Below are positions 19,793-21,728 of a DNA stretch of 64,000 nt, piece after piece (positions within the stretch are counted from its first letter, which is position 1; each line of letters starts with the position of its first letter). The stretch covers positions 1-64,000 of the forward strand of contig NZ_LXEP01000017.1 of assembly GCF_001654835.1 (NCBI RefSeq), read 5' to 3'. A model generated the notes under the pieces. The model did not search any database, had not been told where the DNA came from, and worked only from the letters and a program-made list of their open reading frames with translations. The position numbers and the translations under genes are program-made. Origin of the DNA: Buttiauxella gaviniae ATCC 51604 (GTDB lineage: Bacteria; Pseudomonadota; Gammaproteobacteria; Enterobacterales; Enterobacteriaceae).

Positions 19793-20356
19793 TCAACACT
19801 TAAGGAAATTGGCTAACAGCTGGTGTCCCTGCTCACTGAGAATACTTTCCGGGTGGAATTGCACACCTTCCAGCTCAAGCTCGCGGTGACGAATCCCCAT
19901 AATCTCTTGCTTATCCGTCCAGGCGGTCACGTCAAAGCAGTCAGGTAATGTTGCGGGGTCGATAACCAAAGAGTGATAACGCGTGACGGTGAGAGGGTTG
20001 TTCAGGCCATTGAAGACGCCAGAATTATTATGCGTAATAGCGGATGTTTTGCCATGCATCACTTTTTCAGCGCGAACAATCTTCGCACCAAACGCCTGAG
20101 CAATCGCCTGGTGACCAAGACAGACACCGAGAATCGGTAACTGCCCGGCAAAATGAGTAATCGCCGCAAGTGAAATCCCGGCTTCGGTGGGGGTGCAAGG
20201 GCCAGGAGAGATGACCAGTTTTTCTGGTGCCAGGGCACTGATATCAGAAAGAGTCAGCTCATCATTACGTTTCACCACCACTTCTGCGCCTAATTCACAA
20301 AAGTATTGATAAAGGTTCCAGGTAAATGAGTCGTAATTGTCGATAAGCAGTAGCAT
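19793..20356 (-). CDS. pabA: Aminodeoxychorismate synthase glutamine amidotransferase subunit
   Basis: Supplies ammonia from glutamine to PabB for p-aminobenzoate and folate synthesis. Class I glutamine amidotransferase with the triad Cys79 (GVCLGHQ) and the His-Glu pair in VQFHPESIL near residues 168-170; oxyanion region ISPGPCTP. Length 187 as in E. coli. It is 32 nt downstream of fic, continuing the ppiA-fic-pabA-argD order of E. coli. Confidence 0.97.
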
Positions 20357-20388: not shown

Positions 20389-20991
20389 CTATTCGCTTTC
20401 GCGCGCTTCACTCACGACTTTAGTGAAAATCTCAGTAAGCGGTGCCAGATCGCCCAACGCTCCCGCCTGATTCGCCGTTGCCCATCCTTCAGGCGAGACG
20501 TCTTTCCAATCGAGGATGTAACCGGCATGAATCGCTAACTGCTCGAAAAACACGCGCTGCGCCCGACCACTTCCAACAAAAAACGGATGAAGTACGTTAA
20601 TTTCACAATAGTAATGCGACAGGCGCTGAACGAACTCAGTTCTGGAAAGACCGACCAGATAATGCTCGTCCTCCATTTCTTGCATCAGATCGTTGCCTTC
20701 ATTTTCGATGTACTCGAAATGGCAGAACTGTATCTCCCCTTTGGAAATATCAACGTCTCGTAGCTCGCCTGCCCAGTCGAAAATATCCTGAAAAAGCTGC
20801 TGATGGATAGCACACAACCAGGGTAATCCGCGATGCAACGGGCCAAGTTCAATCGTTTCTACACGCTGCGCGATAATCTCATCTTGCGCATGAGGCTCAA
20901 GAATATCCAGCCGGGAACTAGCCTGAAATGAACGACTACGCAGCTGTTGCCAAAGACGGGACTTTTGTTTGTCGGTCAGTTTCTTTGTCAT
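20389..20991 (-). CDS. fic: Fic protein with fused YhfG-type antitoxin N-terminus
   Basis: Fic-domain protein of the EcFicT group (cAMP-related filamentation locus). Residues 1-28 (KKLTDKQKSRLW then RSRSFQASSRL) match the small antitoxin YhfG/EcFicA, not the E. coli Fic N-terminus. From about residue 31 the sequence is Fic without gaps (ETIELGPLHRG, Gly55 conserved, DIFDWAGELRDVDI). The active-site loop HPFFVGSGRAQR begins at His135; the usual acidic residue is Val and the usual Asn is Ser, as in E. coli Fic, but the following Arg, which is Leu in E. coli, is present. Total length is 200, like unfused Fic. GGAGGCACC precedes the ATG. No separate yhfG exists in the 107-nt gap to ppiA. Biochemical activity of this group is unknown. 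Confidence 0.93.
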   Translation of the reverse strand: MTKKLTDKQKSRLWQQLRSRSFQASSRLDILEPHAQDEIIAQRVETIELGPLHRGLPWLCAIHQQLFQDIFDWAGELRDVDISKGEIQFCHFEYIENEGNDLMQEMEDEHYLVGLSRTEFVQRLSHYYCEINVLHPFFVGSGRAQRVFFEQLAIHAGYILDWKDVSPEGWATANQAGALGDLAPLTEIFTKVVSEARESE

Positions 20992-21066
20992 GGTGCCTCC
21001 CTAACATGACCCATAGTTGCCACAAGTATAAGCAGCAATCGGTAGAAGTGCTGGAAGGGAGATTTT

Positions 21067-21098: not shown

Positions 21099-21728
<630 letters not shown>

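Follow-up and report, generated by a model that had tools for sequence, protein, structure and literature searches.

The 64,000-nucleotide stretch of Buttiauxella gaviniae ATCC 51604 analyzed here (contig NZ_LXEP01000017.1, hereafter the window) carries a gene in which the antitoxin YhfG is joined in frame to a Fic protein. This yhfG-fic fusion gene, which was delimited by open reading frame, Pfam, NCBIfam and Protein Data Bank (PDB) sequence search, occupies positions 20389..20991 on the minus strand, like all features described below, and encodes 200 amino acids. Its ATG start codon is preceded by a ribosome-binding-like stretch in the sequence, GGGAGG (20996..21001). The gene is placed between two conserved flanking genes, the ppiA open reading frame upstream (21099..21728) and pabA downstream (19793..20356), which is the position of the enterobacterial Fic locus of the EcFicT (E. 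coli Fic) kind. Residues 1-29 (20905..20991) make up the YhfG-derived inhibitory helix (alpha-inh), which ends in SSRLD and was assigned from the Pfam YhfG match, the helix of the predicted model and a motif census. The last of these residues, Asp29 (20905-20907), is equivalent in position to Glu28 of E. coli YhfG. The junction or linker ILEPH follows (residues 30-34; 20890..20904), as defined by junction comparison and by ratios of nonsynonymous to synonymous divergence (dN/dS), and leads into the Fic domain (residues 35-200; 20392..20889), which is collinear with EcFicT 35-200 by PDB sequence search and by alignment of the model to PDB chains. The Fic signature HPFFVGSGRAQR, identified in a signature census, lies at residues 135-146 (20554..20589).

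Both halves of the protein are recognized within the one reading frame. Pfam YhfG matches residues 3-32 at 40.6 bits (cut-off 22.6), covering profile positions 1-30 of 54, and Pfam Fic matches residues 58-152 at 57.3 bits (cut-off 24), which bears out the in-frame fusion proposed in a preliminary description of this DNA. The NCBIfam equivalog PRK10347 (Fic) covers the whole protein at 291 bits against a cut-off of 181, and PRK10204 (YhfG) matches residues 3-29, under that model's whole-protein cut-off. In PDB sequence searches, residues 2-33 match YhfG/EcFicA (5jff_B, E 1e-6) and residues 35-200 match EcFicT (5jfz_A, E 8.8e-73), as had been claimed from inspection of the sequence, and Gly55 is kept because the numbering parallels that of EcFicT across 35-200. 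The N-terminal Fic segment of class I proteins, with its DPY motif, is missing. The fused copy is the sole YhfG match in the whole genome, so that no yhfG is left in the 107-nt gap to ppiA (21099), again as described, and the separate antitoxin gene of class I modules is absent. That ordinary Fic N-termini resemble YhfG by chance is ruled out for the one split Fic tested, that of Dryocola locus L043, which has no Pfam YhfG match.

The arrangement of the chain is that of class II Fic proteins, in which an inhibitory helix precedes the Fic domain. The AlphaFold model aligns with class II chains over its full length (residues 1..200) and has the helix at 7-26. The class II motif [S/T]xxxE[G/N] is not present in the window protein, which has SSRLDI at this point (Asp29-Ile30, as first reported). 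Likewise, the canonical AMPylating signature HxFx[D/E]GNGRxxR is not found: in HPFFVGSGRAQR the arginines R1 and R2 (Arg146) are kept, R0 is Phe, the acidic Mg ligand is Val, and the Asn is Ser. R2 is the arginine that the class II glutamate engages to keep ATP from binding in a competent way. A second Fic-domain match in the same genome (L065, G000:C62:6261-6503; 41.5 bits) lies in a 147-amino-acid open frame. The PADLOC candidate defense family PDC-S04 matches the Fic domain of the window protein at E 8.8e-61, and may just be broad enough to pick up every Fic protein of this kind; the PADLOC SoFic model reaches only E 0.0019.

Fused and split loci were compared among 120 loci (12 from Buttiauxella, 6 from Dryocola, 7 from Scandinavium, 59 from Enterobacter and 36 others), of which 52 are fused and 68 split. 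The other loci were hand-picked from a search of 295 Enterobacteriaceae genomes, 133 of which had a match, 14 of these fused on reading. Genus labels are based on one or few members per group. The fusion is carried by all 12 Buttiauxella genomes with the same junction type, and fused frames occur in many other assemblies. An assembly or sequencing error at the junction is thereby refuted, and it is given practically no credence. The comparison of close genomes suggested in the preliminary description revealed both states within Dryocola (three fused and three split in six genomes), Scandinavium (seven genomes, with three fusions of junction type A, one of them with an in-frame stop, one of type B, and three split) and Enterobacter (32 fused, 28 split and one without a match in 61 genomes). 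Fusions of types C and D occur in two further genera. All but one of the 60 Enterobacter genomes with a match entered the set, G716 being left out for its short contig. In 66 of the 68 split pairs the genes overlap, with the fic start 11 nt ahead of the point where the yhfG stop codon ends, and they are probably translationally coupled.

A Pfam YhfG scan of 394 Enterobacterales genomes gave a match in 33. Within long frames, helix-only matches were obtained in Buttiauxella, Enterobacter, Scandinavium and G456, the last of which has a separate full-length Fic; in the Buttiauxella genome G003 the YhfG match spans profile positions 1-47. Ten odd-frame regions were read, a set that does not include G543, G569 and G578. 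Candidate fusions in G456, G381, G557, G185, G045, G060 and G088 were rejected, as Fic lies in a frame apart from YhfG (that of G088 starts late), G197 proved to be split, and a pattern search of the regions fetched for G626, G357 and G204 yielded no Fic. Megablast returned no match to the locus in E. coli genomes. The fused gene of a Scandinavium-like isolate (18056; G723, locus L222) contains an in-frame TAG and looks broken; the copies of near relatives are open. Locus L039, on CACSKA010000004.1, comes from an enterobacterium that shares its genus with Scandinavium goeteborgense; the record title, Chryseobacterium sp. 18061, is probably incorrect.

The four junction types all retain the inhibitory helix of YhfG and lack both the second half of YhfG and DPY. 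Type A (SxxLD[I/V]xEPHxxD, about 200 amino acids) is found in Buttiauxella, Dryocola and Scandinavium, and type B (SxxLE[K/E]GxGP, about 194 amino acids) in Enterobacter and one Scandinavium. The type B N-terminus is YhfG by Pfam at 40.8 bits (cut-off 22.6). Type C (G061) reads SCRLEI with a linker about 10 residues longer, and type D (G269) reads SLRLDD with another linker. In split YhfG, the motif serine is present in 68 of 68 loci, and the acid is Glu in 64 and Asp in 4. Serine and acid are retained in all 52 fused loci, as Asp followed by Ile or Val in type A (S-x-x-L-D-[I/V], 18/18) and as Glu followed by Lys or Glu in type B (32/32), which thus has the Glu of the class II motif without its G/N. 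The glycine after the acid is present in 65 of 68 split loci compared to none of the 52 fused ones. This means that Asp is not unique to the fusion, and that loss of the glycine nearly is.

Ratios of mean pairwise dN to mean dS (NG86, from pairs with dS between 0.02 and 1.5, L222 excluded) are rough because mean dS reaches about 1. The ratio is 0.088 for the Buttiauxella fusion (helix 0.12, linker 0.13, core 0.077), 0.106 for Enterobacter type B (helix 0.09, linker 0.28, core 0.10) and 0.107 for Dryocola type A (3 genomes), and the linker has the highest value in the three fused groups measured. Fused genes are slightly less constrained than split fic (0.072 in Enterobacter, where yhfG has 0.089, and 0.069 in Dryocola), and flanking genes in Buttiauxella and Enterobacter have 0.02-0.07. 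Both halves are under purifying selection, and the ratios speak against a neutral relic. Of the outcomes first considered, an inert protein is therefore unlikely for the Buttiauxella fusion. It has also to be considered that the helix is a structural leftover that fills the groove and stabilizes the fold, with its Asp/Ile form exerting no control and the Fic domain being uncontrolled or non-AMPylating. The Asp-Ile/Val of type A, the signature without an acidic residue and the slightly higher dN/dS of fused genes are consistent with this, as is a stabilizing role of the helix in EcFicTA, whose melting point falls by 10 degrees with Glu28Gly, according to the portions of PMC5033356 consulted. 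However, serine and acid are kept throughout the fused loci, Glu is kept throughout type B, and Asp also occurs in the four split YhfG, two of which stand beside a Fic with HPFRDGNGR or HPFREGNGR. A purely structural helix is thus considered rather unlikely.

Loss of DPY is coupled to a change in the Fic signature. In EcFicTA, R0 of the signature is contacted by Asp10 of DPY (PMC5033356, in part). Among the 120 loci, DPY is absent from 52 of 52 fused proteins and the R0 arginine from 51 of 52, and both are retained in 68 of 68 split ones. Types A (18/18), B (32/32) and D (1/1) lack DPY and have a residue other than Arg at R0, while type C lacks DPY with Arg kept. Counted by origin, R0 has been lost in three of four fusion kinds and in none of the examined split loci. 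The same perfect correlation has been reported for an EcFicT "subgroup 2" from Enterobacter, which has a distinctive N-terminus shortened by a five-residue deletion (PMC5033356, in part). Type B is alike in genus, in an N-terminus shorter by five residues, in the lack of DPY and in an R0 that is not Arg, and subgroup 2 is probably the type B fusion, unrecognized as such. In the parts of PMC5033356 available, the N-terminus of subgroup 2 is not described as an antitoxin, and the S4 legend places an EcFicA homolog upstream in all but one, whereas type B is fused. The fusion would offer an explanation of the published joint loss of DPY and R0 in Enterobacter. A literature search of titles and abstract beginnings, with most subscription journals outside its reach, found no report of these yhfG-fic fusions.

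Fusions in the Enterobacteriaceae apparently arose more than once. In the protein tree of the Fic core, type A groups with split Dryocola, type B with split Enterobacter, and types C and D each with other split rows, although these two are single rows on long branches whose placement is unsure. Approximately unbiased (AU) tests were run on 98 rows, with Enterobacter type B thinned to 10 of 31. A single old fusion, followed by losses or replacements, is not rejected by the protein test (p 0.084 for all fused loci as one clade, 0.36 for A and B), and the unsure placement of C and D leaves it some room. It is rejected by the DNA test on helix and core (p 0.0001 and 0.0017, respectively), junctions and linker lengths differ, and any return to the split state must rebuild the DPY segment, the R0 arginine and the second half of YhfG; a single origin is therefore regarded as very improbable. 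By DNA, the type A helix is closest to split Dryocola YhfG in 17 of 18 loci. The Enterobacter type B helix is on average closest to split Enterobacter YhfG (83% amino-acid identity versus 70-76% for other groups), with its best single DNA match in other genera for 16 of 32 type B rows. The helix of the Scandinavium type B fusion is closest to Scandinavium YhfG, and exchange may therefore have begun inside the gene there. The conversion of a class I module into a class II-like protein, put forward in the preliminary description, is supported by domain content, trees and predicted structure; it is now widened to fusions of apparently several origins that seemingly spread via allele exchange.

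Evidence for such exchange comes from the flanks. On a tree of four flanking genes (tsgA, ppiA, pabA and argD), 10 changes between the fused and split states are needed compared to 4 on the gene tree for the same 99 loci. All seven Scandinavium rows group together on the flank tree with full support. The type A loci among them have Scandinavium-like flanks and a fic closest to Dryocola or Buttiauxella; the type B locus has ppiA and pabA closest to Scandinavium, fic closest to Enterobacter type B, and tsgA and argD about equally close to Enterobacter. Conversely, four split Enterobacter loci (L153, L157, L177 and L178) fall inside the fused clade by their flanks and among split genes by fic. 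This conflict is taken to mean that alleles were exchanged in full or almost in full, and suggests that fused and split alleles have replaced one another at the ppiA-pabA slot. The published account, in which descent is mainly vertical (PMC5033356, in part), needs qualifying to that extent. As to how a junction forms, two of three split Dryocola loci share AACCGGCT between yhfG (NRLE) and fic (NRLD), 148 nt apart. Deletion of 148 nt would produce an in-frame S-NRL-D-I and thereby account for the change from Glu-Gly to Asp-Ile in one step. That microhomology produced the type A junction is a suggestion only, because codon shuffles often give an in-phase shared 8-mer (16-20% of trials; 17 of 68 split loci have one) and a further loss of 4 residues is also needed.

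Taken together, it is probable that the fusion yields one functional polypeptide inhibited in cis by its YhfG helix, that it formed repeatedly, and that its alleles move between species. In the proposed course of events, an in-frame deletion would have taken out the latter half of YhfG together with about 30 residues from the N-terminus of Fic. This would leave the inhibitory helix directly before Fic helix alpha-1 in a class II-like order, most likely still lying in its original groove next to Arg146 of the active site. From there it could act in cis, either as an inhibitor that would not be releasable through loss of a separate antitoxin, or by an acid-assisted reverse reaction known from one class I complex. 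With the DPY "lock" lost, its partner R0 would no longer be needed and would have been free to change. Fusions that arose more than once in Enterobacteriaceae would then pass from species to species, fused and split genes being alternative alleles at the ppiA-pabA slot. In Buttiauxella, whose helix has Asp-Ile/Val in place of Glu-Gly, inhibition in cis would still be likely.

The activity under such control may be other than AMP transfer. There is no evidence of AMP transfer by EcFicT (PMC5033356, in part), and the Fic partner may have left this reaction. In the class I complex Fic-1-AntF, AMP is removed from GyrB and antitoxin Glu28 is required (PMC13327609, in part), which gives the tethered acid a second possible role. 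The fused enzyme might even be mainly reverse-acting, a dedicated remover of modifications in which the tether fixes the Fic-1-AntF state and the acid is a permanent part of the active site. However, Fic-1 has the signature HPFREGNGRAQR (8wt0_A), whereas the window protein has Val in place of the metal-binding acid, and no substrate is known; such an enzyme is judged highly unlikely.

These loci provide natural before-and-after pairs, within single genera, for the step that takes Fic architecture from class I to a class II-like form. Phylogenetic evidence has been cited for the opposite direction, in which class I arose from class II via gene splitting (PMC13327609, in part), whereas the direction seen here in sequence is that of joining. 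The loci also suggest that a described Fic subgroup is an unrecognized fusion, and that the module can be maintained with no antitoxin that is degraded independently, a point relevant to whether EcFicTA behaves as a toxin-antitoxin system at all. More speculatively, and with considerable doubt, the repeated switch from two class I genes to one class II-like gene, with its exchanged alleles, might have produced a self-contained sensor, for example of phage (by analogy with the fused toxin-antitoxin CapRel and with Sofic), that is released by conformational change instead of antitoxin decay.

Among known systems, E. coli EcFicT-EcFicA (Fic-YhfG, class I; 5jff/5jfz; PMC5033356, in part) shares the ppiA-pabA locus, the Fic domain and the inhibitory helix with the Buttiauxella fusion. 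It consists of two proteins with Glu-Gly in the helix motif, while the fusion is one protein with Asp-Ile, and lacks the DPY segment, the R0 arginine and the second half of YhfG. Class II Fic proteins (SoFic, FICD and C. difficile Fic_0569) share the single chain, the helix before Fic and alignment over the full length of the model, but differ from the fusion in having SxxxE[G/N] in the helix and a signature of the canonical form HxFx[D/E]GNGR. In addition, the helix of the fusion is recognizably YhfG, which places the joining within the Enterobacteriaceae. The Bartonella proteins Bep3/1, Bep3/2 and Bep4 reportedly carry an N-terminally fused antitoxin copy (PMC8401265, in part), and thus also have antitoxin sequence before Fic. 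These proteins are secreted effectors, whereas the yhfG-fic module sits on the chromosome at a conserved position and has both split and fused alleles within single genera.
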